From Bacteroidales bacterium (GTDB lineage Bacteria; Bacteroidota; Bacteroidia; Bacteroidales; Tenuifilaceae), in NCBI GenBank assembly GCA_013141385.1, contig JABFRB010000019.1:1-64000 (forward strand): a stretch of 64,000 nucleotides of DNA, given 5' to 3'. Made by a program: the position numbers and the translations under genes. The notes beneath the pieces were generated by a model, which was not told the DNA's origin, ran no database searches, and saw only the letters and a program-made list of their open reading frames with translations. Below, piece by piece: positions 23,640-40,982 of the stretch; position 1 is the first letter of the stretch; each line of letters starts with the position of its first letter.

Positions 23640-24215
23640 ATGTCAAGTGGAGCACATCATCATGAAGTAGATAACTCTTTAGCGGGTAAAGTTCGGCACA
23701 ATACCCAAGTGCATGCCCAAAGATGTTATCAATGCGGAAAATGTAGCGCAGGTTGTCCCCTATCAGCCGATATGGATTACCCGCCCAGTTTGGTCCTCAG
23801 AATGCTACAAACAGGCGATCCTGTTTTTGAGGATAAAATCCTCAGATCGTACACCATATGGGTATGTCTCAGCTGTGAGATGTGCATACAGCGCTGCCCA
23901 ATGGAGGTTGATATCCCTGTAATGATGGACTACCTCCGTCAGGAATCTATTCGTCAGAAAAAGGTTAATCCAAAAGCAAAAAATATAGTTTCATTCCATA
24001 AATCATTCCTCGATTCAATAAAATATACTGGAAGGTTATTCGAATTTGGATTAGTGGTTGATTATAAGATGAGATCATGGAAGATGTTCCAAGATATTAC
24101 CTTGATGCCCGGAATGATTTCGAGAGGAAAACTTCATTTTATTCCTGAACGGATTAAAGGGATCAAAAACATTTCGAATATTTTCACAAAGGTTAGCAAG
24201 GAGGATAAAAAATGA
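23640..24215 (+). CDS. hdrC: HdrC-like iron-sulfur subunit
   Basis: This 191-residue protein carries two [4Fe-4S] motifs, Cys29/32/35/39 (CYQCGKCSAGCP) and Cys76/79/82/86 (CLSCEMCIQRCP), spaced as in heterodisulfide reductase subunit C, with a helical C-terminal part. HdrC passes electrons between HdrA and the HdrB active site. There is no membrane segment, so it is the soluble HdrC type rather than HdrE-linked. The stop overlaps the hdrB start by 4 bases (ATGA). A weak TATACTTG promoter-like box lies at 23608-23615. Confidence 0.9.
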   Translation: MSSGAHHHEVDNSLAGKVRHNTQVHAQRCYQCGKCSAGCPLSADMDYPPSLVLRMLQTGDPVFEDKILRSYTIWVCLSCEMCIQRCPMEVDIPVMMDYLRQESIRQKKVNPKAKNIVSFHKSFLDSIKYTGRLFEFGLVVDYKMRSWKMFQDITLMPGMISRGKLHFIPERIKGIKNISNIFTKVSKEDKK

Positions 24216-25117
24216 AGATAGGACTATATCCAGGTTGCTCGCTGAATGGTTCAGCTAGAGATTATAACGAGTCAGTTTTTGCACTTGCCAAAGCATTTGA
24301 TATTGAATTTGAACAAGTTCCCGATTGGAACTGCTGCGGTGCAACTGCTGCTCACAATATGAACAAGGAACTTTCCTTGGCTCTTCCTGCTCGTATCCTT
24401 GCCGCTGCAGAAAAACATGGACTTGCTGATGTTGTAGTTCCTTGCGCTGCATGCTATAGTCGTTTGGCAGTTACTCAGCACGAACTACTTCATGACCCTG
24501 TTCTAAGAAATCGTGTAAGCGAAATTATTGGAATGGAGTTCAAGGGTACAACCAATATAATGAACGTAATTCAGTTTGTCGATAAGTTTATTGTTGATAA
24601 ACTTGAACCCAAGATCAAAAAGAAATTCAACTATAATGTTGCCTGCTATTATGGTTGCTTGATGGTTCGTCCAGCAAAGATTTTAAAGTACGATCGTCCC
24701 GAAGATCCACAATCGATGGATAATGTGATGCGGAAGATCGGTGCAAATGCATTGGATTGGGGCTATAAGGTTGAGTGTTGTGGTGCTGGTCTATCTGTTT
24801 CAAAAACCGATATGGTTGCAAAGTTATCTGGAAAGATCATTGAGGATGCCACATATCGTGGTGCAGAAGCAATTATCGTTGCTTGCCCAATGTGCCATTC
24901 AAATCTCGATATGCGCCGTCCAAGCATCAATAAGTTTTGGAATAATAAATTCACAGTTCCTGTTATCTATATGACTCAGGCAATTGGATTAGCTGTTGGG
25001 TTAACTCCAAAGGAAATTGGATTGAAGCGTCATTTTGTGGCTATAAATCTTCCTGAGAAGAAGGAGGAGCCGGTTGTTGAGAAAAAGGTTAAGACGAAAG
25101 AAGTTGAGAGTGCATAG
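24212..25117 (+). CDS. hdrB: HdrB-like subunit with two CCG domains
   Basis: This 301-residue protein has two CCG (DUF224) domains. The first has Cys9, Cys41-Cys42 and Cys78/Cys81 (CCGATAAHN, CAACYSR); the second repeats the pattern (CYYGC, ECCGAGLS, CPMCHSN). In methanogen HdrB these cysteines hold two non-cubane [4Fe-4S] clusters that reduce the CoM-S-S-CoB disulfide. All cluster cysteines appear to be kept, so a disulfide or similar two-electron acceptor is likely. The natural partner in this organism is unknown. The C terminus carries a short lysine/glutamate-rich tail. A repeat-bounded insertion follows directly. Confidence 0.9.
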   Translation: MKIGLYPGCSLNGSARDYNESVFALAKAFDIEFEQVPDWNCCGATAAHNMNKELSLALPARILAAAEKHGLADVVVPCAACYSRLAVTQHELLHDPVLRNRVSEIIGMEFKGTTNIMNVIQFVDKFIVDKLEPKIKKKFNYNVACYYGCLMVRPAKILKYDRPEDPQSMDNVMRKIGANALDWGYKVECCGAGLSVSKTDMVAKLSGKIIEDATYRGAEAIIVACPMCHSNLDMRRPSINKFWNNKFTVPVIYMTQAIGLAVGLTPKEIGLKRHFVAINLPEKKEEPVVEKKVKTKEVESA

Positions 25118-25130
25118 CATAAGTACTTAA

Positions 25131-25206
25131 AGTGAACTAAAGTACTTCGAGTGCCTAGAGTTGAAAGACTCTTCTAACTTTAGGCACTCCAAGTACTCTA
25201 GGCACT
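25131..25206 (+). repeat. Left hairpin repeat of the S23 element
   Basis: AGTACTTCGAGTGCCTAGAG on the left pairs with its inverted copy (AACTTTAGGCACTCCAAGTA) across a loop of about 13 bases (GAAAGACTCTTCT). The stem is about 31 bp with a few mismatches and one 1-base bulge. Confidence 0.7.
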
Positions 25207-25221
25207 GTAAATTTGAAAGAT

Positions 25222-25587
25222 ATGGATAACAAAGAGTTTAGCAAACAACTTGAGGAAAGAACCAAAAGGTTTGCTATCGAAATTATCAAACTTTCATCTT
25301 TACTACCCGAAACGCCTGAGGGTAAAGTAATCAAATACCAGATTACTAAATCGGGAACAAGTGTGGGAGCTAATTATAGGGAAGCAAATCGTTCAAGGAG
25401 TAAGGCAGATTTTAAGAATAAAATTAAAATAAGTGAAAGCGAAGCAAGTGAAACAGTTTATTGGTTAGAAATTATTGAACGTTTAAATTGGATTGATAAT
25501 AAAAAAACTCAATCAATGCTAACAGAAGCCAATGAACTACTTGCGATTTTCACTTCAATTGGAAGTAAGTTAAAAACAAGTACTTAG
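25222..25587 (+). CDS. Four-helix-bundle (S23 ribosomal / IVS) protein
   Basis: This 121-residue all-helical protein carries the family signature: RTKRFAIEIIKLSSLLPE near the start, then TKSGTSVGANYREANRSRSK and SEASETVYWLEIIERLNWI. These proteins are encoded in 23S rRNA intervening sequences and as free-standing genes; relatives include the Avd accessory protein of diversity-generating retroelements. They bind nucleic acid, but their role is not settled. I chose the ATG at 25222 over a TTG nine bases upstream. No reverse transcriptase is nearby, so a retroelement role is unlikely here. Confidence 0.88.
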   Translation: MDNKEFSKQLEERTKRFAIEIIKLSSLLPETPEGKVIKYQITKSGTSVGANYREANRSRSKADFKNKIKISESEASETVYWLEIIERLNWIDNKKTQSMLTEANELLAIFTSIGSKLKTST

Positions 25588-25670
25588 AGTGCCTAAAGTA
25601 CTTCAAGTGCCTAGAGTTAAAGACTCTTCTAACTTAAGGCACTCCAAGTACTCGAAGTACTCAAGGCACT
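25578..25670 (+). repeat. Right hairpin repeat of the S23 element
   Basis: This copy is nearly identical to the left one over about 60 bases from 25597 (shared CTAGAGTT, AGACTCTTCTAACTT and GGCACTCCAAGTACT). It is self-complementary and slightly longer because one AGTACTTCGA unit is duplicated. The two copies can each fold alone or pair with one another across the gene. Confidence 0.7.
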
Positions 25671-25704
25671 TAAAAATAGTAAGAAACATAATAATTCATA
25701 TAAA

Positions 25705-27708
25705 ATGGCTCGAATAGGAGTTTTTATTTGTCACTGCGGCGAAAACATTAGCGCAACAGTTGATGTAGTAAAAGTTGCTGAGGAAATCAGCAAACTTAAG
25801 GGCGTTGCTCATAGTGTCGAGTATAAATATATGTGTTCCGACCCAGGACAAAACTTAGTTATTGAGGCAATAAAGGAGAAGAAACTTACAGGAGTTGTGG
25901 TTGCTGCGTGTTCACCACGTATGCACGAACCAACTTTCCGTAAAGCTTGTGAGAATGCTGGCCTTAACCCTTTCCTCTGCGAAATGGCTAACCTTAGGGA
26001 GCATTGTTCTTGGGTTCATGAAAGAAATGATACTACCACTGAAAAAGCTATTGATATTGTAAGAACATTGGTGGCAAAGGTTCAGAAGAATGCCGCACTT
26101 CAACCAATCAAGGTTCCTGTTACCAAAAAGGCATTAGTGATTGGAGGTGGAGTCGCAGGTATTCAGGCTGCACTTGATATTGCAAACTGTGGTCATAAAG
26201 TTATTTTGGTTGAACGCTCACCCTCTATTGGTGGTCACATGGCTCAGCTATCGGAGACTTTCCCAACTCTCGATTGCTCGCAATGTATCTTAACTCCAAG
26301 AATGGTTGAGGTTGCTCAGCACCCAAATATCACTCTATATACATACGCTGAAGTTGAAGGTCTAGAAGGGTTTATAGGTAACTTCAAGGTGAAAATTCGT
26401 AAAAAATCAAAGAGCCTCGATGAGAAACTTTGTACTGGTTGCGGGTTGTGTACAACAAAATGTCCTAAAAAGAAAATTCCAAGCGAGTTTGAACAAAACT
26501 TAGGGTTTCGTCCAGCAATATACGTTCCATTCCCTCAAGCAGTACCCAATAAACCGGTTATAGACAAAGTAAACTGTACCTATTATAATACAGGTAAGTG
26601 CAAAGTTTGCGAAATTGTTTGCCCTACAAAGGCAATCCGTTTCGACCAACCTGATGAAATAATCGAGGAATCAATTGGAGCAATTGTACTTGCAACTGGT
26701 TTTGAGGTTAAGCGTTCCGATTTCTTCCCAGAATACGGACATGGTAAATATAAAGATGTGATCGATGGTCTTCAATTTGAAAGATTAGCATCAGCATCTG
26801 GCCCAACACAAGGTGTTATTCGACGTCCATCGGATGGACAAATTCCAAAACGCATAGCATTTATAGCATGTGCTGGTTCTCGTGACCCTGCAAAGGGAAT
26901 AGAGTACTGCTCAAGAATCTGCTGTATGTACACCGCAAAACATGCAATGCTTTACAAACACAAGGTTCACGAGGGTGATGCTTACGTATACTATATGGAT
27001 ATTAGGGCAGCAGGTAAGAACTACGAAGAGTTTGTTCGCCGTGCCATTGAAGAAGACCATGTACATTATGTAAGAAGTCGCGTATCGACAATTATTGAGC
27101 GTAACGGAAAATATATATTAAAGGTAGCTGATACTCTTCTTGGTGCTCAACCTCAAGAGGTAGAGTTCGATATGGTAGTGCTTGCAACAGCAGGTATTGC
27201 TAGTCCAGGTGCAGAAAACTTAGCTCAAACCTTACATGTATCTTACGATCAACATAAGTTCTTTGCTGAGGCACATCCAAAACTTCGTCCTGTGGAGACA
27301 AACACCGCAGGTATTTTCTTAGCAGGTGCTTGCCAAACAACAAGGGATATTCCCGATTCAGTTTCAATGGCATCGGGTGCAGCAGTAAAAGTTGCTGGAT
27401 TGTTCTCACAAACAGAATTAACCCGTGATCCATTAATTGCTCAGGTTAACAGATTAGGCCCACCACTCTATTCAACCTGTGTTGGCTGCTTTATGTGTCA
27501 ACCAGTTTGCCCATACCAAGCAATCGAGCGAGAAGAGATTAAATCGAGAGATGGTAAAGTAATAAAGGTGCTTGCTAAAATAAACGAGGGATTATGTCAA
27601 GGTTGTGGAACTTGTATTGCACTTTGTCGCTCCAAATCTATCGACATTCATGGCTACACCAATCAGCAAGTTTACTCAGAGGTAGTGGCATTATTTAACG
27701 AGTTTTAG
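25705..27708 (+). CDS. hdrA: HdrA-like flavin/iron-sulfur subunit
   Basis: This 667-residue protein has an N-terminal CHC-containing domain (VFICHCGENI). A FAD-binding Rossmann motif, VIGGGVAGIQAALDIA, starts near residue 148, and the CSQCILTPRM cluster loop follows. Ferredoxin-like clusters lie mid-chain (CTGCGLCTTKCPKK, CKVCEIVCPTKAI) and at the C terminus (CVGCFMCQPVCPYQ, CQGCGTCIALC). HdrA holds the FAD where electrons bifurcate: one pair is split between ferredoxin and the HdrB disulfide site. The length matches single-copy HdrA. It is separated from hdrB by the S23 element but continues directly into flxD. Confidence 0.92.
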   Translation: MARIGVFICHCGENISATVDVVKVAEEISKLKGVAHSVEYKYMCSDPGQNLVIEAIKEKKLTGVVVAACSPRMHEPTFRKACENAGLNPFLCEMANLREHCSWVHERNDTTTEKAIDIVRTLVAKVQKNAALQPIKVPVTKKALVIGGGVAGIQAALDIANCGHKVILVERSPSIGGHMAQLSETFPTLDCSQCILTPRMVEVAQHPNITLYTYAEVEGLEGFIGNFKVKIRKKSKSLDEKLCTGCGLCTTKCPKKKIPSEFEQNLGFRPAIYVPFPQAVPNKPVIDKVNCTYYNTGKCKVCEIVCPTKAIRFDQPDEIIEESIGAIVLATGFEVKRSDFFPEYGHGKYKDVIDGLQFERLASASGPTQGVIRRPSDGQIPKRIAFIACAGSRDPAKGIEYCSRICCMYTAKHAMLYKHKVHEGDAYVYYMDIRAAGKNYEEFVRRAIEEDHVHYVRSRVSTIIERNGKYILKVADTLLGAQPQEVEFDMVVLATAGIASPGAENLAQTLHVSYDQHKFFAEAHPKLRPVETNTAGIFLAGACQTTRDIPDSVSMASGAAVKVAGLFSQTELTRDPLIAQVNRLGPPLYSTCVGCFMCQPVCPYQAIEREEIKSRDGKVIKVLAKINEGLCQGCGTCIALCRSKSIDIHGYTNQQVYSEVVALFNEF

Positions 27709-27736
27709 TAGAAAATATTCAAAATACCATATACAA

Positions 27737-28180
27737 ATGTCTGAATTTGAACCTAAAATAGTTGCTTTCGTATGCAACTGGTGTACATACGCCGGAGCCG
27801 ATTTAACGGGGACAAGCCGCATCAAGTATGCAGCCAACGTTAAGATTATTCGCTTCCCTTGTACAGGTAGAATCGACTTTATGCTTTTGATGAAAGCCTT
27901 TCAGAATGGTGCCGATGGGATTATCGTTTCAGGTTGTCACCCCAACGATTGTCACTATTCCAGTGGAAATTTCCACGCAAAACGCCGCTGGATGGCATTC
28001 CGCGAGTTGCTCGATTATATGGGTGTTGATATTGAGCGAATCACTTTCTCTTGGGTATCGGCTGCCGAGGGTGCACGTTGGGCTGAGATTGTAAATACTA
28101 CTACCGAAAAACTCCGTAAACTCGGACCCTATACAAATTATCAGAATCTTGTTAAATCTGGTATAGAAGAAGAACTATAA
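27737..28180 (+). CDS. flxD: MvhD/FlxD-like [2Fe-2S] electron-transfer protein
   Basis: This 147-residue protein carries the MvhD cysteines: CNWCTYAGAD near the start, FPCTGRID in the middle, and SGCHPNDCHY. MvhD/FlxD proteins hold a [2Fe-2S] cluster and carry electrons from the input module into HdrA. The gene is 28 bases after hdrA, and its stop overlaps the next ATG (TAATG), as expected for tight subunit stoichiometry. The order hdrA-flxD-flxC-flxB-flxA argues for an NADH-linked Flx module rather than a hydrogenase. Confidence 0.88.
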   Translation: MSEFEPKIVAFVCNWCTYAGADLTGTSRIKYAANVKIIRFPCTGRIDFMLLMKAFQNGADGIIVSGCHPNDCHYSSGNFHAKRRWMAFRELLDYMGVDIERITFSWVSAAEGARWAEIVNTTTEKLRKLGPYTNYQNLVKSGIEEEL

Positions 28181-28983
28181 TGGAAAGTATAAGAAAAAGA
28201 GCCAAGGAGTTGCTAGATAGCAAACAGGTTCAAGTAATCATAGGTTACGAAAACGGAACCTCAAATAAAGTTAGAGCATCATTTATTAAAGATTCTGCTC
28301 AGGTCGATAAACTCATTTACGATGAGCGTTGCACCCAAAACCTAGCGGTATATCTTGTTAAGCATGAGGTAAAACATCTTGGAAAGATGGGTATTGTTGC
28401 TACCATCCCAGTGATGAGAACAATCAATATGCTCATTTCCGAAGAACAGGTTAAGGCTGAAAATATTGTGGTTCTAGGCATAGGTGAGGATGGTAAACTC
28501 CTCGATTTTCCCGACCTAACCGTAATGGAAACTTATCTTCAAAAAGCGAATACCGCATTTTCGGCTAAGGATAAGGAGGCGATTGAGAAGTTAAAGAAGA
28601 TGACTACTCAAGAGAAGTTTGACTACTGGACAAATGCTCTTGAAACCTGCTTCAAATGCTATGCATGTCGTTCGGCTTGCCCTCTTTGCTACTGTACACG
28701 TTGTGCTGTTGAATGCAATCAACCTCAATGGATTCCAGTACAGGCAAGTAAAAATGGAAACTATGAATGGCACATGCTAAGAGCAATGCACCTTTCGGGA
28801 CGTTGTGTAAGTTGTGGTGACTGCGGAAGAGCCTGTCCATTGGATATTCCAGTTCATCTGCTTACCATGCATATGGCTGAAGAATCAAAGAGATTATTTG
28901 GGGTTGACTCAGGTCTTTCGATGAAGATGGAGTCAGTTCTATCAAATTACAAACTTGATGATAAAGACAATTTTATTCTCTAA
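28180..28983 (+). CDS. flxC: FlxC-like iron-sulfur protein
   Basis: In this 267-residue protein the first 130 residues form an alpha/beta domain without cysteine clusters. The C-terminal half has CFKCYACRSACPLCYCTRC and CVSCGDCGRACPLDIP, which can hold at least two [4Fe-4S] clusters. Length, motifs and position between flxD and flxB fit FlxC of the flavin oxidoreductase-heterodisulfide reductase complex described in Desulfovibrio. It should relay electrons within the input module. Overlap with flxD suggests coupled translation. The exact subunit letter is by analogy. Confidence 0.7.
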   Translation: MESIRKRAKELLDSKQVQVIIGYENGTSNKVRASFIKDSAQVDKLIYDERCTQNLAVYLVKHEVKHLGKMGIVATIPVMRTINMLISEEQVKAENIVVLGIGEDGKLLDFPDLTVMETYLQKANTAFSAKDKEAIEKLKKMTTQEKFDYWTNALETCFKCYACRSACPLCYCTRCAVECNQPQWIPVQASKNGNYEWHMLRAMHLSGRCVSCGDCGRACPLDIPVHLLTMHMAEESKRLFGVDSGLSMKMESVLSNYKLDDKDNFIL

Positions 28984-28986: not shown

Positions 28987-30003
28987 ATGGAACTTGAAAG
29001 GAAACTAATCAAAAAGGCATCGCTTGAAAAACTTTACCAAAAGCTTCAGGCGAATGGCAATAAAATATTCGCTCCAATTATCAAAGATGGTAAAACAGAA
29101 TTTCACTATAACCCATCATATACCGAGGTTACCTATGATCATATTCAAACAACCCAATCGTTAAAAAATACCGTATTTCCTAAGATAGAGAATCTTGTAC
29201 GTTTCACAACCGATAGGAATGGTACTGAGGTTACTGAGGTAGATCTAGCAAAAGTTCCAAGCCTTGTCCTTTGGGGTGCTCACCCTTGTGATGCTGCTGG
29301 CTTTAACGCCTTGAAGTCGATATTCATGTGGGATTATAAAGATGAGTACTTTAATACCAGAATGAATAAGATGGCGGTTATTAGCCTTAGCTGCTATAAA
29401 TGTGACGATAACTGTTTTTGTACCTCTGTTGGACTAAATCCAGGCGCAACAAACGGAAGCGATATACTGCTCACCAAACTTAGCACTGGCGATTATCTTG
29501 CCGAGATTATCACCAAAAAGGGCAAAGAGATTGTAAATGCTGCCGCAGATCTATTTGAGGCTGCTCCTGCAGAATCAAAAGATGGAAACCTTGCTCAGGT
29601 TAAGCAACAATTCTCACACGAAAAGGTAACCAAAAACCTTGCTGGCACTTTCGAACACCCATTCTGGGTTGAAAATTCGCTCCGCTGCATTGGTTGCGGT
29701 GCTTGTGCGTTTGTATGCCCTGCTTGTGCTTGTTTCGATATTCAAGATGAAACCAAGGGTAAAACTGGTAAACGACTAAGATGTTGGGATTCATGCGGTT
29801 TTGGACTATTTACAATCCATACATCAGGTCATAACCCACGCGAGGTTCAGAGTCAGCGTTGGAGACAGAGGATTATGCATAAATTCTCATATATGCCTGA
29901 ACGTAACGAATCGCTTGGTTGCATTGGTTGCGGCCGCTGTTCACGTGCTTGCCCTGTGGATATGAATATCCTTGAGCAGCTGGTTAAATTGGAGAATATT
30001 TAA
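28987..30003 (+). CDS. flxB: FlxB-like iron-sulfur protein (AsrA/hydrogenase beta-like)
   Basis: This 338-residue protein has the AsrA/HydB-type segment GAHPCDAAGFNALKSIF and the SLSCYKCDDNCFCTSVG cysteine group. Two ferredoxin-like clusters (CIGCGACAFVCPACACF and CIGCGRCSRACPVDM) lie near the C terminus. Related subunits pair with an FAD/NAD(P)-binding partner and pass electrons from NAD(P)H into the complex. It starts 3 bases after flxC. It could also be named a sulfite reductase A-like protein, but no sulfite reductase catalytic subunit is near. Confidence 0.75.
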   Translation: MELERKLIKKASLEKLYQKLQANGNKIFAPIIKDGKTEFHYNPSYTEVTYDHIQTTQSLKNTVFPKIENLVRFTTDRNGTEVTEVDLAKVPSLVLWGAHPCDAAGFNALKSIFMWDYKDEYFNTRMNKMAVISLSCYKCDDNCFCTSVGLNPGATNGSDILLTKLSTGDYLAEIITKKGKEIVNAAADLFEAAPAESKDGNLAQVKQQFSHEKVTKNLAGTFEHPFWVENSLRCIGCGACAFVCPACACFDIQDETKGKTGKRLRCWDSCGFGLFTIHTSGHNPREVQSQRWRQRIMHKFSYMPERNESLGCIGCGRCSRACPVDMNILEQLVKLENI

Positions 30004-30088: not shown

Positions 30089-30925
30089 ATGTGTCAAAAT
30101 ATCTATAAACCCTACTTAATGGAGGTCGAGAAGATTACCGAAGAAGCACCTGAGGTAAAAACTTTTCGATTAAAATTCAAGAACCCTGAGGATGCTGAAA
30201 AGTTCGAGTTTAAGGCTGGGCAGTTTGGTGAGTACTCGGTGATGGGCGAAGGCGAATCAACCTTTTGTATCGCATCAGCACCTACCCGCAAGGGGTATAT
30301 CGAATGTACATTCCGCAAGGCAGGTAGAGTAACTGGCGCATTGGCAAATCTCGAAGAGGGCGAAACCATTGGTTTCCGTGGTCCTTATGGCAATATCTTC
30401 CCAATTGATGAGTGGAAAGGCAAAAACCTACTCTACATCGCTGGTGGTATTGCACTTCCCCCTATGCGTTGCGTGATTTGGAATACACTCGATTTAAGAG
30501 AAAACTATAAAGATATTACAATTATATACGGTGCAAGAACGGTAAACGACCTAGTTTATAAGCACGAGTTAAAGGAATGGGGGGAGCGTCCCGATGTGAA
30601 GTTGGTAACTACCGTTGACCCAGGGGGTGAAACTCCAAATTGGAAGGGCGAAGTTGGATTTGTTCCAACTGTTCTCGAAAAGGTTGCCCCATCGAGCAAA
30701 GATACCATTGCTATTGTTTGTGGCCCTCCAATTATGATCAAATACACGTTCCCTGTTCTCGAAAAGTTAGGTTTTACTGAAGATACTATCTTTACAACGC
30801 TTGAAAACAGGATGAAGTGCGGGTTTGGGAAATGCGGTCGTTGCAATGTTGGTAAGTACTTTGTTTGTAAGGATGGACCAGTTTTTACCTATAAACAGCT
30901 AAAGGAATTACCTGATGAGTATTAG
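30089..30925 (+). CDS. flxA: FlxA-like FAD/NAD(P)-binding oxidoreductase
   Basis: This 278-residue protein of the ferredoxin reductase / AsrB type has an FAD-binding segment (STFCIASAPTRKG), an NAD(P) fold beginning LLYIAGGIALPPMR, and a C-terminal [2Fe-2S] cysteine group MKCGFGKCGRCNVGKYFVC. This is the subunit expected to oxidise NADH and feed FlxB. It ends the operon after an 85-base gap. NADH rather than NADPH is inferred from the Flx family; the nucleotide preference cannot be read with certainty. Confidence 0.8.
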   Translation: MCQNIYKPYLMEVEKITEEAPEVKTFRLKFKNPEDAEKFEFKAGQFGEYSVMGEGESTFCIASAPTRKGYIECTFRKAGRVTGALANLEEGETIGFRGPYGNIFPIDEWKGKNLLYIAGGIALPPMRCVIWNTLDLRENYKDITIIYGARTVNDLVYKHELKEWGERPDVKLVTTVDPGGETPNWKGEVGFVPTVLEKVAPSSKDTIAIVCGPPIMIKYTFPVLEKLGFTEDTIFTTLENRMKCGFGKCGRCNVGKYFVCKDGPVFTYKQLKELPDEY

Positions 30926-31099: not shown

Positions 31100-31450
31100 A
31101 TGAGCGGCGAATTCTTAATTCTGTTTTTTATTGTAGCGGTTGTACTGGTTGGTGGTGCGATAATTTTTTCAAATTATGTTGCCCCAACTTCAGAGAACCC
31201 ACAAAAGCACGATCCATATGAGTGCGGTATCCCAACAAAAGGGTTAACATGGTTGCAGTTTAACGTAGGTTACTACCTGTTTGCCATTATCTTTCTAGTG
31301 TTCGACGTTGAAATCGTTTTTGTGTTTCCTTGGTCGGTTGTTATGAAAGATCTTGGGATGACCGCTTTTATTGAGATCGTGATATTCTTCTTTGTACTTG
31401 TCCTAGGCCTACTATACGCCTGGAAGAAAAAGGCTTTGATATGGGAGTAA
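31100..31450 (+). CDS. nuoA: NADH-quinone oxidoreductase subunit A
   Basis: This 116-residue protein has three transmembrane helices and the conserved [13 protein letters not shown] loop after helix 1, followed by [14 protein letters not shown] in helix 2. NuoA belongs to the membrane arm near the quinone channel. It starts the nuo operon and overlaps nuoB by 10 bases. The length and motifs are normal. Confidence 0.95.
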
Positions 31451-31983
31451 AAATTAAATCGATGAAGTACGAAGATTTTGAGGATAACGAAACCCTCGAA
31501 CTCTTCAAACAATCAGGCGGCAACATCCTTTTCACAACAATCGATAATATAGTTAATTGGGGACGAAGCAATAGCATCTGGCCATTGACCTTCGCAACCA
31601 GCTGTTGTGGTATTGAAATGATGGCCACTGGTGCTGCACGTCATGACTTTGCCCGTTTCGGCATAGAGGTTTATCGTGCTAGCCCTCGTCAAGCAGACGT
31701 AATTGTTGTTGCAGGAACAATCGTACCAAAGATGGCTCCTGTGCTAAAACGTTTGTACGACCAGATGCCTGATCCAAAGTATGTTATTGCAATGGGAGCA
31801 TGCGCAGTTTCTGGCGGACCATTTGTTAATTCATACTCCATTGTTAAAGGTGTTGATAAGATTATACCTGTGGATGTTTATGTTCCAGGATGTCCCCCAA
31901 GACCTGAAGCATTGCTTTATGGTGTTATGCAGCTCCAGCGCAAGATCAAGACTGAGAGTATGTTTTTAAAAAAAGATAAATAA
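31441..31983 (+). CDS. nuoB: NADH-quinone oxidoreductase subunit B
   Basis: This 180-residue subunit of the peripheral arm holds cluster N2. The ligands are visible as TSCCGIEMM (two adjacent Cys), MGACAVSGG and [12 protein letters not shown], all intact. N2 donates electrons to quinone. The first ATG overlaps nuoA; an internal ATG at 31462 is possible. Because NuoB is complete while NuoEFG are missing, the complex should still reduce quinone, but from another donor. Confidence 0.95.
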
Positions 31984-32461: not shown

Positions 32462-33583
32462 ATGGCTGAAGAGATTATTATTCCAGAGGCAGACAATCAG
32501 GAGATTTCCATTAACATGGGACCTCAACACCCATCTACTCACGGTGTGTTACGTCTTGTCCTTTCGCTAAAAGGCGAAATGGTTCAAAAAGTTGAACCAC
32601 ATTGCGGTTACATCCATCGTGGTATGGAGAAGATGACCGAAACAATGACCTACCAACAGATCATACATCTTACCGATAGGCTCGATTACCTTTCTGCTCA
32701 CATGAATAATGCAGCAGTTTGCCTCGCAGTTGAAAAAGCACTTGACATTGAGGTACCCGAAAGAGTAAAGGTTATCCGCACAATTATGGATGAATTAGCC
32801 AGAATCGCTTCACATCAACTTTGGTGGTGTTCATTCGGTATGGATCTTGGTGGTTTAACATGTTTCTTCTATGGACTTCGCGACCGCGAAAAAATTCTTG
32901 ATATTTTTGAGGAGACCACTGGTAGCCGATTAATACAGAGTTACAATTGTCCTGGTGGTTTAATGGCTGATCTCGATCCAAATTTCCAAAAGAAGGTTAA
33001 AGATTTTATAAAATACTTCAGAAAAATCCTTCCTGAGTATGATGAGTTGCTTTCAGGCAACATCATTATGATGGAAAGAGCTAAAGGTGTTGGAGTAATG
33101 AGCAAGGAACAAGCTATCTCTTTTGGTATGACAGGTCCATCTGGTAGAGGAAGCGGTTTCTCATGCGACGTTCGCAAGCATCACCCTTACCATGCCTACG
33201 ACAGGGTTAAATTTAACGAGGTTTTACGTACTGAAGGCGATACTTACGCTCGTTATATGGTCCGTTTGGACGAGATGCGTGAATCGATGAATATAATCGA
33301 ACAACTAATCGATAATATTCCTACTGGTGACGTCGCTGTTAAGATGAAGCCGATTATCAAACTTCCTGAAGGAGAGTACTATCAAAGAGTTGAATCTGCA
33401 CGTGGCGAGTTTGGTGTTTACATTATAAGCAAAGGCGAAAAAAATCCATATAGGATGAAATTTCGTTCACCAAACTTCTGTAATCTTTCGGCACTTGATA
33501 CCTTGGCCAGAGGTCAAAAGATTGCAGACTTAGTGGCTATTGGTGGCTCACTCGATTACATTATTCCTGATATTGACAGATAG
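32462..33583 (+). CDS. nuoD: NADH-quinone oxidoreductase subunit D
   Basis: This 373-residue protein begins with the quinone-site segment INMGPQHPSTHGVLRL and later has PHCGYIHRGMEK. It is related to NiFe hydrogenase large subunits but lacks their metal-binding cysteines. NuoD forms the quinone pocket with NuoB. The C terminus ends with IGGSLDYIIPDIDR, as in the family. No abnormality is seen. Confidence 0.95.
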   Translation: MAEEIIIPEADNQEISINMGPQHPSTHGVLRLVLSLKGEMVQKVEPHCGYIHRGMEKMTETMTYQQIIHLTDRLDYLSAHMNNAAVCLAVEKALDIEVPERVKVIRTIMDELARIASHQLWWCSFGMDLGGLTCFFYGLRDREKILDIFEETTGSRLIQSYNCPGGLMADLDPNFQKKVKDFIKYFRKILPEYDELLSGNIIMMERAKGVGVMSKEQAISFGMTGPSGRGSGFSCDVRKHHPYHAYDRVKFNEVLRTEGDTYARYMVRLDEMRESMNIIEQLIDNIPTGDVAVKMKPIIKLPEGEYYQRVESARGEFGVYIISKGEKNPYRMKFRSPNFCNLSALDTLARGQKIADLVAIGGSLDYIIPDIDR

Positions 33584-33607: not shown

Positions 33608-34708
33608 ATGTCATTTACTTTTGATTTCTACGACTTTACAAGCTTTACCCAGTGGGTCGATGTTACATTGCGCGGAGCGTGCTCCCCGTTTTGGGCTGTC
33701 CTTTGGGAAATGGTTATTGTAGGAGTTTTATTCCTGGCATTCTATGCAGTTGTCGGGTTATATCTGGTTTATGCCGAACGTAAAATTTGTGCATTTATCC
33801 AGAACCGTGTTGGTCCCAATAGGGTAGGCCCCTATGGTTTTTTCCAAACCATTGCCGACCTAATTAAACTCCTTATGAAGGAGATTATCTCCATCCGCGA
33901 AGCCGACAAATTACTCTTTAACCTAGCACCATTTATTGTAATCATCACTTCATTCTTAGCACTTGCAGCTATTCCTTTTGCAAAAGGGCTACACCCAATC
34001 GACCTAAACATTGGAGTCTTTTATGTGATGGCCATTTCGTCGATGGGGGTTGTTGGTATTCTGCTTGCAGGATGGTCGAGTAACAGTAAGTACTCGCTAC
34101 TTGGTGCAATGCGTAGTGGTGCGCAGATTATCAGCTACGAACTTTCGGTTGGTATGTCGCTTATTGCGATTTGCGTGCTTGCAGGCAGTATGCAACTTTC
34201 AACCATTGTAGAAGGACAGAGAGACCTTTGGTTCATTTTTAAAGGACATATTCCTGCTATTACCGCATTCATAGTCTATATGATTGCTGCTACCGCAGAG
34301 ACAAACCGTGGTCCTTTCGACTTGGCTGAGGCTGAATCAGAGTTAGCAGCAGGTTTCCACACTGAGTACTCAGGGATTAAGTTTGCATTCTTCTTCCTTG
34401 CAGAGTACATGAACATGTTTATTGTTGCATCGTTAGCCGCTACCATTTTCTGGGGTGGTTGGATGCCTCTACATATACCAGGTCTCGAAAGCTTTAACCA
34501 TGTAATGGATTTTATACCTCCTGTTCTATGGTATGTTGGAAAAACCGTTGTAATCATCCTCATTATGATGTGGTTCAAGTGGACTTTCCCACGCTTACGT
34601 ATCGACCAGCTATTGAACCTTGAGTGGAAGTTTCTGCTTCCAATCAGCTTGGTTAACATTCTAATAATGGCATTTATTGTCTTAATGGGTTGGCAGATTG
34701 GATTATGA
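33608..34708 (+). CDS. nuoH: NADH-quinone oxidoreductase subunit H
   Basis: This 366-residue protein has about eight transmembrane helices, the signature [20 protein letters not shown] after the first long helix, and the acidic [20 protein letters not shown] loop. NuoH connects the quinone site to the ion-pumping arm. The TGA stop overlaps the nuoI ATG. The short amphipathic N-terminal extension (about 25 residues) is longer than in many relatives. Confidence 0.95.
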
Positions 34709-35184
34709 GAGAAATATTTAACTACTTCAAAACTATATTCTTCGCCCTTAAGTCCCTTTGGACTGGGATGAAGGTAACTAGTGCTTATTTTTTTAAGCCT
34801 TGGAAAATTGTAACCCAACAGTATCCTGAGAATCGTAAAAAACTGAAAATGTATGAGCGAACCAAGGGTGAATTGGTTATGCCTCATAACGAAAAGAACG
34901 AGCATCAGTGTACCGCTTGCGGAATTTGCCAGATCAATTGCCCTAACGGAACAATTGAGGTAAAATCTGTTACCATCGAAACACCCGATGGAAAGAAGAA
35001 AAAAGTACTCGACAAGTATATCTACAACCTTGGAATGTGTACTTTCTGTGGACTATGCGTAAAAGTTTGTCCATCGGATGCAATTGTATTTTCGAACAAG
35101 TTCGAACATGCTGTTTTCAACAAGGAAAAACTTGTGAAAACTCTAAATAAAGAAGGTTCAACCTTAAAGAAAGGGGCTGAATAA
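34705..35184 (+). CDS. nuoI: NADH-quinone oxidoreductase subunit I
   Basis: This 159-residue protein carries two ferredoxin motifs, [16 protein letters not shown] and [16 protein letters not shown], which bind clusters N6a and N6b. I chose the ATG at 34705, which forms an ATGA overlap with nuoH; an upstream ATG would overlap more. In an enzyme without NuoEFG, NuoI is the most likely docking point for reduced ferredoxin or a ferredoxin-like partner such as the Flx-Hdr product. Confidence 0.93.
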
Positions 35185-35705
35185 TGGAAATTACCGTACA
35201 TCAAATCATGTTTGCCCTGTTTTCGGCTATCATATTGGTTTTTTCAGTTTTAACTGTAACCACCCGAAGAATCCTAAGAGCAGCTACTTTTCTTCTCTTA
35301 GTACTTGTTTCAACTGCAGGGCTCTACTTTATGCTCAACTACCAGTTTATGGCTGGGGTTCAGCTTACCCTATATGCAGGGGGTATTGTAGTTCTAATCA
35401 TCTTTTCAATTTTGCTTACCAGCCATATCAGCCAAAAGTTTGAAACTGTAGGTTGGAGAAAAGCATACTTCTCAGCACTTGCATCTATTGCCGGGGCAAT
35501 TCTTTGTATCACAACAATCCTTCAGCACAAGTTTCAGGCAACAACCGAAGCGGCTAAAGAGATCGATATGAAACTAATTGGGAACAGCTTGCTAAGCACC
35601 GACAGAGATGGTTACGTTCTTCCTTTTGAGGTAATCAGTGTGCTGTTGCTTGCCGCAATGATTGGAGCGATTGTAGTTGCTAAACGTAAGAAAACAAAAG
35701 AATAA
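35184..35705 (+). CDS. nuoJ: NADH-quinone oxidoreductase subunit J
   Basis: This 173-residue protein has five hydrophobic helices, including the segment FMAGVQLTLYAGGIVVLIIF with the pi-bulge-forming YAGG. It is part of the membrane arm's proton path. The start overlaps the nuoI stop (TAATGG) and the gene is 3 bases from nuoK. Confidence 0.93.
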   Translation: MEITVHQIMFALFSAIILVFSVLTVTTRRILRAATFLLLVLVSTAGLYFMLNYQFMAGVQLTLYAGGIVVLIIFSILLTSHISQKFETVGWRKAYFSALASIAGAILCITTILQHKFQATTEAAKEIDMKLIGNSLLSTDRDGYVLPFEVISVLLLAAMIGAIVVAKRKKTKE

Positions 35706-35708: not shown

Positions 35709-36029
35709 ATGTTAAACGCAGGTATCCCAATGGAAGCCTTCTTAGTTGTAAGCACCCTGATGTTTTTTGCAGGTGTTTATGGCTTCCTTACACGCCGCAA
35801 CCTGATAACTATTCTAATGTCGGTTGAGCTAATCCTGAACTCGGTGAATATCAACTTTTTGGTATTTAACCGCTTCCTATTTCCCGATAAACTTCAGGGT
35901 CATTTCTTCTCGCTATTTATAATAGCTATCGCCGCAGCCGAGGCTGCTGTTGCAATTGCAATTATTATTAATATTTACAGGCACTTCAACACTATCAATG
36001 TTGAAAATGTCGATAAGATGAAATATTAA
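35709..36029 (+). CDS. nuoK: NADH-quinone oxidoreductase subunit K
   Basis: This 106-residue protein has three transmembrane helices with the conserved acidic residues in LMSVELILNSVNINFL and AIAAAEAAVAIAI. The glutamates take part in proton relay. It is related to MrpC. The size and sequence are typical. Confidence 0.94.
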   Translation: MLNAGIPMEAFLVVSTLMFFAGVYGFLTRRNLITILMSVELILNSVNINFLVFNRFLFPDKLQGHFFSLFIIAIAAAEAAVAIAIIINIYRHFNTINVENVDKMKY

Positions 36030-36056: not shown

Positions 36057-37979
36057 ATGTCAGGTTTTTCGTACACAATATTAATTCCGATAATTCCCTT
36101 GTTAATGTTCCTATTTTTAGGGCTAACAGGACACAAGATGAAACCCGCTATTGCTGGTATTATCGGTACAACAGGTTTATTCATTTCGACCTTGCTTTCG
36201 TATATTACCGCTTACCAGTATTTCTTGGTATCGGGCAAGGTGGATGGTGTATACCAAAAAATTATAGCTTTCAACACGGTTTGGCTTCAGCTAACCGATA
36301 AGCTACATATCGATTTGGGTGTGCTACTCGACCCAATTTCGGTGATGATGCTTGTGGTTATTACCACCGTTTCGTTGATGGTACACATCTACAGCAATGG
36401 CTACATGAAGGGGGAGCGCGGATTTCAGCGATTCTTTGCATTCCTCGGACTGTTTAGCTTCTCGATGCTAGGATTGGTTTTAGCAACCAATATTTTCCAG
36501 ATGTATATTTTCTGGGAATTGGTAGGCGTCTCCTCGTTCTTGCTAATCAGCTTTTATTACGATAAACCTAGTGCTGTTGCTGCTGGTAAAAAGGCATTTA
36601 TTGTTACCCGTTTCGCCGACCTTGGCTTTTTGATTGGTATTTTAATCCTATCATACTTTACCGAAACATTCGATTTTGTAACTCTTACAACCCCTGGTTG
36701 TCCTGCAATTGTTCAAGCAGCAGGTATAACTTTTATGGGATTTTCAGTAGTTACTCTTGCATTAGTACTAATATTTATGGGTGGTGCTGGTAAATCGGCA
36801 ATGTTCCCATTACATATTTGGCTACCCGATGCGATGGAGGGTCCAACCCCAGTTTCAGCGTTGATTCATGCTGCAACCATGGTTGTTGCAGGTGTATACT
36901 TGGTAGCACGGTTGTTCCCAATCTTCGCTTTAACATCACCCGATGCATTAACGGTTGTTGCTTACGTTGGAGGATTTACCTCGCTATTTGCAGCGGTGAT
37001 TGCTTGTACCCAAAATGATATCAAGCGAGTTCTTGCATATTCAACCATGTCGCAAATTGGTTATATGATGCTTGCTCTTGGTGTTTCGGGCTATGGTGGC
37101 CACGATGGTCTTGGTTTTATGGCATCGAACTTCCACCTGTTCACACACGCTATGTTCAAGGCCTTACTATTCCTTGGTGCTGGTGCAATAATACATGCTG
37201 TACATAGCAATGTTATGACTGAGATGGGTGGTTTGAGAAAGTATCTACCAATTACACACATTACATTCTTAATTGCTTGTTTAACTATTGCTGGAGTTCC
37301 ATTCCTATCAGCTTTCTTTAGCAAGGATGAGATTCTAACTGCAGCATATCATCACGATAAAGTTTTATTCTTTGTTGAGTATGCAGTTGCTGGGTTAACA
37401 GCATTCTATATGTTCCGTTTGTATTTCAACGTATTCTGGGGAGAGGATAGGCATTATCATCATACTCCACACGAAGCGCCGCTGGTTATGACAATACCAT
37501 TGATGTTTTTGGCAATTGCATCAATATTTGCTGGATATATCCCTTTTAGTCAACTTGTAACCTCTGATGGTGCTGCATTTGAAGCGCATCTTGAAATGCC
37601 AATTGCTGCAGCCTCTGTGTTTATTGGATTAGTTGGGATTTTTGTTGCAATGTACATGTATATGAAACCTAAGGGTGCTCCTGAAAAGATGGCGGCAACT
37701 TTTAGTCATCTATATAAATGGTCGTACAACAAGTTCTATATGGATGAGGTTTACCTTTTCGTTACAAAGAGGATAATTTTTGCCTACATCTCAGGACCAG
37801 TTGCTTGGTTCGATAGACATGTTGTTGATGCTACCATGAACGGATTTGCTTGGGCATCGAACTATGCATCATTTCATATCAGAGATTTACAATCAGGACA
37901 ATTGCAGAAATACGCATTTGTGTTTATTTCGAGTGTGCTGATATTGGTTCTTTCGTTCGTATATCTTTTCATGAACTAG
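36057..37979 (+). CDS. nuoL: NADH-quinone oxidoreductase subunit L
   Basis: This 640-residue antiporter-like subunit has the conserved FWELVGVSSFLLISFYYDK, GKSAMFPLHIWLPDAMEGPT and STMSQIGYMMLALG segments, and a long C-terminal amphipathic helix region with a final helix. It is the distal ion-pumping subunit. Key glutamate (WELVG) and lysine (GKSA) residues are present, so pumping is expected. Confidence 0.95.
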   Translation: MSGFSYTILIPIIPLLMFLFLGLTGHKMKPAIAGIIGTTGLFISTLLSYITAYQYFLVSGKVDGVYQKIIAFNTVWLQLTDKLHIDLGVLLDPISVMMLVVITTVSLMVHIYSNGYMKGERGFQRFFAFLGLFSFSMLGLVLATNIFQMYIFWELVGVSSFLLISFYYDKPSAVAAGKKAFIVTRFADLGFLIGILILSYFTETFDFVTLTTPGCPAIVQAAGITFMGFSVVTLALVLIFMGGAGKSAMFPLHIWLPDAMEGPTPVSALIHAATMVVAGVYLVARLFPIFALTSPDALTVVAYVGGFTSLFAAVIACTQNDIKRVLAYSTMSQIGYMMLALGVSGYGGHDGLGFMASNFHLFTHAMFKALLFLGAGAIIHAVHSNVMTEMGGLRKYLPITHITFLIACLTIAGVPFLSAFFSKDEILTAAYHHDKVLFFVEYAVAGLTAFYMFRLYFNVFWGEDRHYHHTPHEAPLVMTIPLMFLAIASIFAGYIPFSQLVTSDGAAFEAHLEMPIAAASVFIGLVGIFVAMYMYMKPKGAPEKMAATFSHLYKWSYNKFYMDEVYLFVTKRIIFAYISGPVAWFDRHVVDATMNGFAWASNYASFHIRDLQSGQLQKYAFVFISSVLILVLSFVYLFMN

Positions 37980-38034: not shown

Positions 38035-39540
38035 ATGGATGTACTATCATTACTGGTAATAATACCGACGATTACGATTATCGGGATATTGTTTACAAAG
38101 GAGAAGAAGCAAGCTCGCCTTGTATCCGCAATCGGTACAGGAATACAGCTAGTCCTTGCAGGGATTCTTGTTTGGATGTATTTAGCTGAGCGTTCAGGCG
38201 GAAATACTGCTCAAATGCTTTTCACTCAGGATTACATGTGGTATCCAAACCTTAATATTCATTACGCAATTGGTGTTGATGGTATTTCGGTAGCCATGAT
38301 AGCCTTAACTGCAATAGTTCTTTTTGCTGGGGTATTCGCATCATGGGAGGTTGAGTTCCTAAACCGTGAGTTCTTTATTTCGCTCATCCTGCTTTCGTCA
38401 GGGGTGTTTGGATTCTTTATCTCACTCGATCTATTTACCATGTTCCTGTTCTACGAACTTGCGGTTATCCCGATGTACCTGCTAATTGGTATTTGGGGTA
38501 CAGGTCCAAAGGAGTATTCAGCAATGAAACTTACTCTAATGCTTATGGGAGGTTCAGCATTGCTGCTTGTAGGTCTTCTAGGTATTTACATGAATTCAGC
38601 ACCTGCAGGTCAACCATTAACATTTAACCTAATTGAAATTGCTAAAGTTACCATATCAATTGAGGCTCAACGCCTATTCTTCCCATTAACATTTGTTGGT
38701 TTTGGTGTTCTTGGAGCTTTATTCCCTCTACATACTTGGTCACCTGATGGTCACGCTTCAGCGCCTACCGCAGTATCTATGTTACATGCTGGTGTGCTTA
38801 TGAAACTTGGAGGTTACGGATGTTTCAGAGTAGCAATGTATTTAATGCCCGAAGCAGCTCATGAAATGGCTTGGATATTCATTATCCTGACTACCATTAG
38901 CGTTGTTTACGGTGCATACGGTGCAATCGTTCAGAAAGACCTTAAGTATATCAACGCTTACTCGTCAGTTAGTCACTGCGGACTAGTAATTTTCGCTCTA
39001 TTAATGATGAACAAAACCGCAATGGACGGCGCAATCCTTCAAATGATATCTCACGGTTTGATGACAGCACTCTTCTTCGCATTAATTGGGATGATTTACG
39101 GACGTACTCATACTCGTAACATCTACGAAATGGGTGGTTTGATGAGAATCATTCCTTTCCTATCAGTTGTTTATGTTATTGCGGGTCTTGCATCACTTGG
39201 TCTTCCAGGCCTTAGCGGTTTCGTTGCTGAGATGACCGTATTTGTTGGTGCTTTCCAACATGCAGATATGTTCCACAGAGTTGCAACAATAGTTGTAACC
39301 ACATCAATTGTAGTTACAGCAGTATATATATTAAGAGTTGTTGGAATCTTGCTTCTCGGCCCAATTAGGAATGAAGAGTATAATCATTTTAAAGATGCTA
39401 CATGGTTTGAGAAACTTTCGACCGTTACACTTTTACTAATGATTGCAGCAATTGGTCTTGCACCACTTTGGCTTTCGAACATGATTCAACATAGCCTTGT
39501 TCCAATTATTCAAAAATTAGCTATTGCACCAGGGATTTAA
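38035..39540 (+). CDS. nuoM: NADH-quinone oxidoreductase subunit M
   Basis: This 501-residue antiporter-like subunit has the proton-channel segments FLFYELAVIPMYLLIGIWG, FPLHTWSPDGHASAPTAVSM and NAYSSVSHCGLVI. The essential glutamate in FYELAVIP is kept. It is 55 bases downstream of nuoL and 20 bases upstream of nuoN. Confidence 0.95.
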   Translation: MDVLSLLVIIPTITIIGILFTKEKKQARLVSAIGTGIQLVLAGILVWMYLAERSGGNTAQMLFTQDYMWYPNLNIHYAIGVDGISVAMIALTAIVLFAGVFASWEVEFLNREFFISLILLSSGVFGFFISLDLFTMFLFYELAVIPMYLLIGIWGTGPKEYSAMKLTLMLMGGSALLLVGLLGIYMNSAPAGQPLTFNLIEIAKVTISIEAQRLFFPLTFVGFGVLGALFPLHTWSPDGHASAPTAVSMLHAGVLMKLGGYGCFRVAMYLMPEAAHEMAWIFIILTTISVVYGAYGAIVQKDLKYINAYSSVSHCGLVIFALLMMNKTAMDGAILQMISHGLMTALFFALIGMIYGRTHTRNIYEMGGLMRIIPFLSVVYVIAGLASLGLPGLSGFVAEMTVFVGAFQHADMFHRVATIVVTTSIVVTAVYILRVVGILLLGPIRNEEYNHFKDATWFEKLSTVTLLLMIAAIGLAPLWLSNMIQHSLVPIIQKLAIAPGI

Positions 39541-39560
39541 TGGTTTAATCTATTGATACT

Positions 39561-40982
39561 ATGAATTTAAATAGTTTTCTTTTAATGCGCCACGAGATTG
39601 TACTAATTGCAGTTGCGCTTATTATACTGATAGCCGAGATATTCACATCGGATCAGAATAAAGGACGTATCCGTGGATTGGCAGTAATCCTGTTTGCGAT
39701 AAACACCATTATAGGGTTTTTACCTGCAGAAACTGGATCGTTATTCGGAGGAATGTATACCACAATTCCCCTTCATATAGTTGTAAAAAACATTTTGAAC
39801 ATTGGAACGCTAATTATCCTGATTCAGTCGAATACTTGGCTTAAAACAGAGGAAAATAGCGATAAATTTCCTGAGTTTTACCTTCTACTGATTTCAACAT
39901 TAGTTGGTATGTTCTATATGATCTCAGCAGGTGATTTCTTGATGTTCTATCTTGGCCTCGAATTAGCAACTATTCCCTTAGCTGCATTAGTGGCTTACGA
40001 TCGTTACAGAAACAACTCTGCTGAGGGCGGTATTAAATTAATCTTATCATCGGCATTCTCTTCAGGTATTATGCTTTACGGTATTTCGATGATATATGGT
40101 ATGTACGGTAGCATTTACTTCGATATGCTGAATCCAGCTATGGCCATGAATAGCCTAACAGTTCTAGCATTTATCTTCTTCTTTGCTGGTATGGCTTTCA
40201 AGATTTCATTAGTTCCTTTCCATCTATGGGCAGCTGATGTTTACGAGGGTGCACCAGTGAACATTACTTCATACCTATCAGTTATTTCGAAAGGTGCAGC
40301 AGTATTTATTCTTACAATAATCCTATTCAAGGTATTCCCAACCATTTCGGATTTGTGGCAAAAGGTTGTTTGGGTGATAGCCGTTATGACTATGACCATT
40401 GGTAACCTTTTTGCAATTCGTCAACAGAACTTAAAACGATTCATAGCATTCTCGAGTATATCACAGGCTGGTTTCTTCCTATTAGGTGTAATTGGCGGAA
40501 ACGAGATGGGTATGACAGCAATCGTTTACTATATGTTAGTTTACATCTTCTCAAACCTTGGCGTTTTTGGTGTTATCGCCGCAATTTCGAACCAATCGGG
40601 TAAAGAGAATATGGATGATTACAATGGATTATATCATACCAACCCAATGCTTAGCTTAACAATGATGTTGGCGTTATTCTCATTGGCAGGTATTCCACCT
40701 GTTGCTGGGTTCTTCGGAAAGTTCTTCCTATTCACCGCAGCAGCGCAGAAAGGTTTTTATATTCTTGTACTAATTGCAACTATAAACACAATTATATCCT
40801 TGTACTACTATCTACTTGTTGTAAAAGCAATGTTCATCAACAAGAGTGAAACTCCTATCCCTTACTTTAAGAGCGATTTTATGACCAAACTTGGTCTCGG
40901 TCTTTGTATTGCAGGTCTTATAATTACTGGTTTTGCAAGTGGAGTTTGGGAGATGATAGCAAAGATTAGCTTTGGAATGTAA
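39561..40982 (+). CDS. nuoN: NADH-quinone oxidoreductase subunit N
   Basis: This 473-residue antiporter-like subunit has the segments LGLELATIPLAALVAYDRY, SLVPFHLWAADVYEGAPVN and FIAFSSISQAGFFLLG. It is the last gene of the nuo operon and is followed by a terminator. With it the set is A, B, C, D, H, I, J, K, L, M, N; no E, F or G is present in the window. Confidence 0.95.
   Translation: MNLNSFLLMRHEIVLIAVALIILIAEIFTSDQNKGRIRGLAVILFAINTIIGFLPAETGSLFGGMYTTIPLHIVVKNILNIGTLIILIQSNTWLKTEENSDKFPEFYLLLISTLVGMFYMISAGDFLMFYLGLELATIPLAALVAYDRYRNNSAEGGIKLILSSAFSSGIMLYGISMIYGMYGSIYFDMLNPAMAMNSLTVLAFIFFFAGMAFKISLVPFHLWAADVYEGAPVNITSYLSVISKGAAVFILTIILFKVFPTISDLWQKVVWVIAVMTMTIGNLFAIRQQNLKRFIAFSSISQAGFFLLGVIGGNEMGMTAIVYYMLVYIFSNLGVFGVIAAISNQSGKENMDDYNGLYHTNPMLSLTMMLALFSLAGIPPVAGFFGKFFLFTAAAQKGFYILVLIATINTIISLYYYLLVVKAMFINKSETPIPYFKSDFMTKLGLGLCIAGLIITGFASGVWEMIAKISFGM

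Follow-up and report, generated by a model that had tools for sequence, protein, structure and literature searches.

Recurrent linkage of FlxABCD-HdrABC genes to an 11-subunit complex I in Bacteroidota, with ferredoxin as a possible connection

Headless complex I, which comprises NuoABCDHIJKLMN without NuoE, NuoF, and NuoG, occurs in Bacteroidetes (PMC6560451). Ferredoxin is its presumed donor (PMC4287179, PMC11238625), and which protein feeds it directly is described as still in question, after attempts to find a shared donor did not succeed (PMC11238625). A Bacteroidales genome (5.55 Mb in 53 contigs, 99% complete) poses this question at a single locus. The stretch analyzed here, 64,000 nucleotides of its contig C19 (the window), encodes at positions 23640 to 40982 all seven subunits of FlxABCD-HdrABC together, directly followed by an 11-subunit nuo gene set. 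Is Flx-Hdr the electron transfer partner of this Nuo? The linkage recurs among relatives, and Flx-Hdr and the headless Nuo probably work together, perhaps via ferredoxin. We hold with moderate confidence that hdr-flx and nuo constitute a co-inherited, probably cotranscribed electron transfer module whose parts are linked by the ferredoxin pool. The linkage gives headless complex I a named donor candidate that is repeatedly linked to it in Bacteroidota.

The hdr-flx and nuo genes of the window

Gene calls and family matches gave the order hdrC-hdrB-(IVP)-hdrA-flxD-flxC-flxB-flxA-nuoA-B-C-D-H-I-J-K-L-M-N, as in the initial annotation of this DNA apart from the IVP gene (a 23S rRNA-intervening-sequence-type gene, described below), which that annotation had omitted. 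The hdr, flx, and nuo genes are as follows (aa, amino acids).

23640-24215, plus strand: hdrC, 191 aa, two 4Fe-4S motifs; TIGR03290, E 2e-16 (below cutoff); Pfam Fer4 families
24212-25117, plus strand: hdrB, 301 aa, CCG domains; PF02754, E 4e-23, two stretches; TIGR03288, E 6e-48 (below cutoff)
25705-27708, plus strand: hdrA, 667 aa, FAD, several 4Fe-4S; NF040770, E 8e-228 (below cutoff); full-length match to 5odc_A, 671 bits
27737-28180, plus strand: flxD/mvhD; PF02662, E 6.5e-51
28180-28983, plus strand: flxC, 267 aa, cysteine rich; 4Fe-4S Pfam matches
28987-30003, plus strand: flxB, 338 aa, HydB/AsrA-like, PF17179; solved relative 9nez_B, E 9e-42
30089-30925, plus strand: flxA, 278 aa, PyrK/HydG-like; FAD/NAD and [2Fe-2S] domains PF00175, PF00970, and PF10418
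31100-31450, plus strand: nuoA; NF005839, E 1e-28 (below cutoff); PF00507 over cutoff
31441-31983, plus strand: nuoB; NF011391 over cutoff; N2 cluster cysteines kept
32002-32451, plus strand: nuoC; TIGR01961 over cutoff
32462-33583, plus strand: nuoD, not fused to nuoC; NF004739 over cutoff; best solved relative cyanobacterial NdhH, 6hum_H, E 2e-93
33608-34708, plus strand: nuoH; NF004741 over cutoff
34690-35184, plus strand: nuoI, two 4Fe-4S motifs, TTG start as listed; TIGR01971, E 3e-25 (below cutoff)
35184-35705, plus strand: nuoJ; NF005168, E 3e-27 (below cutoff)
35709-36029, plus strand: nuoK; NF004320 over cutoff
36057-37979, plus strand: nuoL; NF005141 and TIGR01974 over cutoff; GK motif of transmembrane helix 7 (TM7) present
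38035-39540, plus strand: nuoM; TIGR01972 over cutoff; Leu226 in place of the TM7 lysine, other three key charges kept
39561-40982, plus strand: nuoN; TIGR01770 over cutoff, E 5e-113

The matches of HdrA, HdrB, HdrC, NuoI, and NuoJ fall under the NCBIfam curated cutoffs, and several hdr and nuo matches below cutoff are what would be expected of a distant subfamily. HdrB has two CCG domains with their cluster cysteines; C9, C41, C42, C78, C81, C149, C189, C190, C225, and C228 were invariant in all 61 aligned sequences, and C145 was present in 60 of the 61. FlxC aligned with 16 relatives at 41 to 58% identity with its cysteines invariant, and FlxA has FAD, NAD, and [2Fe-2S] domains. No nuoE, nuoF, or nuoG was found between nuoD and nuoH or elsewhere in the window's nuo operon, and the cluster cysteines of NuoB and NuoI are retained in the translations (read by eye and, for NuoI, also aligned); on both points the initial annotation was correct.

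Linkage of hdr-flx and nuo in relatives

Co-occurrence was assessed in an order-level set of 198 genomes, 69 of which encoded an MvhD-type protein. FlxC was searched in those 69, the MvhD-negative genomes being assumed to be FlxC negative, and matches were obtained in 37; 22 were counted as strong (at least 230 bits), with two at 94 to 117 bits and 13 weaker ones left out. An 11-subunit-type NuoD, defined by a cut of 420 bits, was present in 76 of the 198 genomes. It was found in 21 of the 22 FlxC genomes versus 55 of the 176 others (Fisher P = 4e-9, without correction for shared ancestry), so that in this set FlxC almost implies an 11-subunit nuo. The regions around flxC were read in all strong-FlxC genomes except the window's own and G047, which left 20. 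Linkage was seen in G129, G069, G094, and, across two contigs, G196, and the window brings the total to 5 of 22. If genes were placed at random in a 4-Mb genome, hdr-flx would lie beside nuo in 5 of 22 genomes with a probability of about 2e-10; treating the cases as 3 of 20 lineages, where 20 is a rough guess, raises this to about 4e-6.

A second census covered named FlxC loci, namely, the top 80 among 583 confirmed stretches. An 11-subunit nuo adjoined hdr-flx at 15 of them: 11 were divergent, with 202 to 509 bp from nuoA to hdrC, 2 were co-directional, and 2 were interleaved (hdrCBA-nuo-flxDCBA). The co-directional arrangement was shared by the window, L055/L083, L060/L104, and the congeners G235 and G236; L083 carries the label Marinifilum. 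The interleaved order hdrCBA-nuoA..N-flxDCBA was read at L056, and in G196 it extends over two contigs, one ending in hdrCBA-nuoABCD (L194) and another starting with nuoH..N-flxDCBA (L053); L080 and L082 were coded as interleaved from the gene orders read, excluding opposite-strand EFG-like matches at the far end of L082. The initial annotation had asked whether relatives also have hdr-flx beside nuo; these 15 loci and the two congeners show that some do, and adjacency confined to this strain is ruled out.

A tree of the joined Hdr/Flx proteins was built by a quick method from 87 rows (2 of 89 were dropped for too little sequence), with 23 of its 84 inner branches open. Eight added order-set loci were labeled by hand as unlinked or undetermined, and L114 (unlinked in the census) and L115 (not judgeable, and untraced) were labeled as convergent with a 14-subunit nuo. 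Linked rows fell at three separate places in this tree, namely, a divergent clade, the clade of the window, and a clade formed by the interleaved pair with L083 and L104.

Headless nuo operons also occur apart from hdr-flx. At 13 such loci, inspection by eye of the genes just upstream revealed no common redox partner. Three headless operons (L221, L223, and L226) have several unrelated-looking genes between nuoH and nuoI. A dihydroorotate-dehydrogenase-like gene is found repeatedly at the edges of hdr-flx and nuo operons (L055, 7129 to 8163; L076 to L079; L081; L021, 3317 to 4351); it exceeds the NF005741 cutoff in L055 and L021, and none was present at L075 or L080. A plasmid search with FlxC returned one distant match only.

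A proposed ferredoxin-centered module alongside the NADH-type complex I

In the scheme that we favor, electrons from NADH would enter at FlxA and pass through FlxB, FlxC, and FlxD to the flavin of HdrA. Bifurcation at this flavin would send one branch to ferredoxin and the other, via HdrC and HdrB, to a disulfide. Electron transfer between ferredoxin and menaquinone by the 11-subunit Nuo would be coupled to proton pumping, and the two enzymes would meet through the ferredoxin pool and not in a fixed complex. Where a separate 14-subunit NADH:quinone complex is present, the module would run alongside it. Besides the linkage and the co-occurrence, the conserved HdrB cysteines, the lack of a common redox partner just upstream of headless nuo loci apart from hdr-flx, and the lack of any Rnf/Nqr match in the source genome speak for this scheme. 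Flx-Hdr needs a high-potential acceptor, and Ramos and coworkers reportedly described it in 2015 as an NADH dehydrogenase/heterodisulfide reductase.

The initial annotation had suggested that Flx-Hdr and Nuo form an indirect NADH:quinone route, and it had also considered a direct Flx-Nuo contact in place of NuoEFG conceivable. The pairing is supported by the linkage in three gene orders and by the near implication of an 11-subunit nuo by FlxC in the order set. A role of Flx-Hdr as a stand-in for missing NuoEFG is not supported, because contig C16 of the same genome carries a second nuo operon, A-B-CD-E-F-G-H-I-J-K-L-M up to the end of the stretch read, whose NuoE, NuoF, and NuoG exceed the curated cutoffs; a lack of nuoEFG in the organism is thereby ruled out, the initial annotation itself having named nuoEFG elsewhere in the genome as a refutation, and other linked genomes occur both with and without a 14-subunit-type NuoD. 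Nor is a headless nuo special in itself, 11-subunit complex I being ordinary in Bacteroidota.

By score and length, a 14-subunit-type NuoD was found in 12 of the 17 linked genomes, and EFG were read out in G000, G069, G094, G196, and G208. G199 and G206 have instead a small Mbx-like cluster, nuoH-nuoB-nuoC-nuoD-nuoL. NuoD matches numbered one each in G129 and G201, and G203 had only fragments beside headless and Ehr-like ones. In G199, a FlxA-like gene (L185, on contig C119; 48% identity) precedes the complex I-like cluster nuoH-B-C-D-L. Genomes with the pair often have an NADH-type complex I as well, which an indirect NADH:quinone route would replace poorly; it makes more sense to see the pair as a ferredoxin-centered balance of NADH, menaquinone, and a thiol pool.

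Other genes of the source genome also handle NADH. NuoF-type matches numbered six genome-wide, one being nuoF of the C16 operon and three lying in [FeFe]-hydrogenase loci; the remaining two lie at L007, beside a formate-dehydrogenase-like/NAD(P)-binding fusion, and at L012, within a NuoE-NuoF fusion. The initial annotation had also raised rnf and hydrogenases. No Rnf/Nqr match was found in the source genome, and [FeFe]-hydrogenases of the NADH-dependent type were present at three loci, with all proteins over the group A cutoff (TIGR02512). The hydrogenases of L008 and L009 exceeded the cutoff of the NADH-dependent group A6, and that of L011 was just under it. Contig C18 encodes a third 49-kDa-type subunit, which has no CxxC pair and so looks like part of a hydrogenase-related complex without NiFe ligands.

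A natural comparison with and without hdr-flx exists within one genus, in G235 and G236 versus G234. Among the five genomes of the genus, FlxC lies next to nuo in G000, G235, and G236, and G234 (98% complete) and G233 (67%) have nuo with no FlxC match. A 14-subunit NuoD was matched in G000 and G235 but not in G236 (97%), which has the linked pair, nor in G234, whose headless nuo is also without hdr-flx. The 11-subunit Nuo (Nuo11) can therefore occur without Flx-Hdr, and the linked pair can occur without NuoEFG. The remainder of the family comprised 22 genomes; none of them gave a FlxC match, and one, G231, had an 11-subunit-type NuoD.

Evidence against the module and alternative explanations

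Several observations weigh against hdr-flx and nuo being one module. In the order set the genes were linked in only the 5 FlxC genomes named above, the others being unlinked or not judgeable. Among the 80 named loci, 32 were unlinked, with at least 1.5 kb readable on each side and no nuo within 3 kb, a further 32 were not judgeable for linkage, and one, L107, lay beside a 14-subunit nuo. L114 and L115 have a reversed nuoN some kilobases off; only in L114 was it followed into a 14-subunit operon. G234 lacks the hdr-flx block but has nuo at the same place and keeps two upstream neighbor genes of the window; donors other than Flx-Hdr must therefore be able to feed this Nuo. Finally, the only DsrC-family protein of the source genome has a single C-terminal cysteine, the penultimate residue.

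The DsrC protein bears on the acceptor of HdrB. A two-cysteine DsrC, the obvious candidate, is ruled out by the single C-terminal cysteine. The two-cysteine DsrC-type acceptor is a proposal for sulfate reducers; it concerns the acceptor and is no criterion of membership in the Flx-Hdr family. At L019 (7205 to 9315), a type III sulfide:quinone reductase gene (NF049943 over cutoff) and a DsrE2-like gene (below cutoff) flank a DsrC/TusE-like gene of the one-cysteine kind.

It is possible, though rather unlikely, that the pathway runs in reverse. Reduced ferredoxin from pyruvate oxidation would then feed Nuo11, and Flx-Hdr would confurcate ferredoxin and dithiol to NADH, or Nuo11 would use proton motive force and menaquinol to reduce ferredoxin. 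The direction is not told by gene order, and the genome has other NADH sinks in the nuo operon with EFG and the three [FeFe]-hydrogenase loci. An Hdr-associated ferredoxin:NADH oxidoreductase has been postulated for reverse electron transport in syntrophs (PMC5736913).

Two anaerobic redox operons might also be neighbors through coregulation only, with no particular electron exchange with each other, an explanation that we consider unlikely. It would accommodate the unlinked FlxC loci, the nuo of G234 without hdr-flx, and the hdr-flx of L107 adjoining a 14-subunit nuo, and a single control region used by both operons could lie behind the 11 divergent loci. However, common regulation under anaerobic conditions would not by itself readily account for the interleaved order and the three separate linked clades.

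It is very unlikely that Flx-Hdr sits on Nuo in the place of NuoEFG as one bifurcating, quinone-reducing supercomplex: the interleaved operon resembles that of one complex and G236 has the linked pair without a 14-subunit NuoD, but flx is also found next to a 14-subunit nuo, two nuoA genes in 15 of the 22 FlxC genomes weigh against a fixed complex, and the variable gene orders, the divergent arrangement, and the Nuo without Flx-Hdr in G234 argue against an obligate Flx-Nuo contact.

Loss of the TM7 lysine in NuoM

A further observation bears on the pump of the proposed ferredoxin-linked module. In an alignment, the window NuoM has Leu226 where solved NuoM/NdhD chains have the TM7 lysine, a key residue that is paired with the TM5 glutamate (PMC10212512). 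NuoM from 23 headless loci, both linked and unlinked, was compared (the window at 38035 to 39540, L053, L055, L056, L104, L188, L193, L196, L197, L201, L214, L216 to L223, and L225 to L227, with L224 unreadable), and the site was leucine in 21, phenylalanine in 1, and lysine in none of the 22 readable sequences, which are not independent cases, as some loci come from congeners. The TM5 glutamate was kept in all, and the TM8 lysine and TM12 glutamate were kept wherever covered. No nuoE, nuoF, or nuoG lay beside nuo at the nine extra headless loci in this set (L219 to L227), and the TM7 lysine was kept in all four NuoM sequences from operons with EFG.

Because the loss is common to all Bacteroidota headless complexes tested, it was not treated as excluding membership among the headless complexes. 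It could change the proton/electron ratio, and a brief literature search found no report of it. A bolder synthesis, which we regard as quite doubtful, would make Flx-Hdr the electron-input module of headless complex I, the whole being a bifurcating NADH-ferredoxin-menaquinone machine, encoded in some lineages as one operon with nuo inside hdr-flx and with a pump that lacks the NuoM TM7 lysine.

Operon layout and the inserted IVP gene

Two further features belong to the layout of the locus.

25213-25587, plus strand: 23S rRNA-intervening-sequence-type (IVP) four-helix protein gene, 124 aa; TIGR02436, E 1.5e-26; PF05635, E 1.7e-21
41015-41042, plus strand: intrinsic-terminator-like site, 12-bp stem and T run, 33 bp past nuoN

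Intergenic gaps are below 100 bp throughout, except at flxA-nuoA (174 bp) and from the IVP gene to hdrA (117 bp). A terminator scan found no terminator-like site in the flxA-nuoA gap; the initial annotation had mentioned neither this gap nor the site past nuoN. The site after nuoN has the longest stem of 14 terminator-like matches; this total is no higher than the average of 14.8 in shuffled sequence, so the scan is weak evidence for one transcription unit. Promoter scans gave 4 matches to a Bacteroidota pattern versus 5.5 expected and 48 sigma-70-type matches versus 49.9 expected.

The IVP gene region (25118 to 25704) is flanked by complementary AGTGCCTA/AGTACTC repeats, and a long RNA stem is predicted in the window. 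Across the window and L214 to L217, the gene lies between hdrB and hdrA in G000 and G235 and between nuoC and nuoD in G236, G234, and G233, so its place in the operon seems to have shifted. Further four-helix/IVP-type genes were seen inside redox clusters, between flxB and flxA at L108 (by blastp) and at 9782 to 10156 of L012 (TIGR02436); the DNA of the latter gave no match to the window element.

Comparison with known systems

In the literature searched, no adjacency of hdr-flx and nuo was reported for Bacteroidota. The window's cluster has the same seven kinds of subunits, with the HdrA, HdrB, and FlxA domains and cluster cysteines, as the FlxABCD-HdrABC (Hdr-Flox) of Desulfovibrio and other anaerobes. 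In Desulfovibrio, Hdr-Flox lies between alcohol dehydrogenase genes (PMC4287179), whereas that of the window adjoins nuo and is accompanied in its genome by the one-cysteine DsrC-family protein.

With the 11-subunit headless complex I of Bacteroidota, Desulfitobacterium, and Desulfovibrio gigas, the window shares nuoABCDHIJKLMN without EFG, and it differs in that its nuo is directly linked to the genes of a candidate electron-input enzyme. Outside Bacteroidota, the headless complexes compared with its NuoM, which has no TM7 lysine, were the solved cyanobacterial and chloroplast ones only. The archaeal headless Fpo is an 11-subunit relative of complex I for which Hdr proteins and ferredoxin are the presumed partners; it differs in being archaeal, in involving HdrD-type proteins, and in being linked to methanophenazine or heterodisulfide. 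A comparable case is the Hdr-Flx of Endoriftia, in which korABCD, encoding a ferredoxin-linked enzyme, lies inside the hdr-flx cluster between hdrA and hdrBC (PMC11636981). The partner in Endoriftia is a 2-oxoglutarate:ferredoxin oxidoreductase, whereas the partner in the window would be a quinone-reducing pump.

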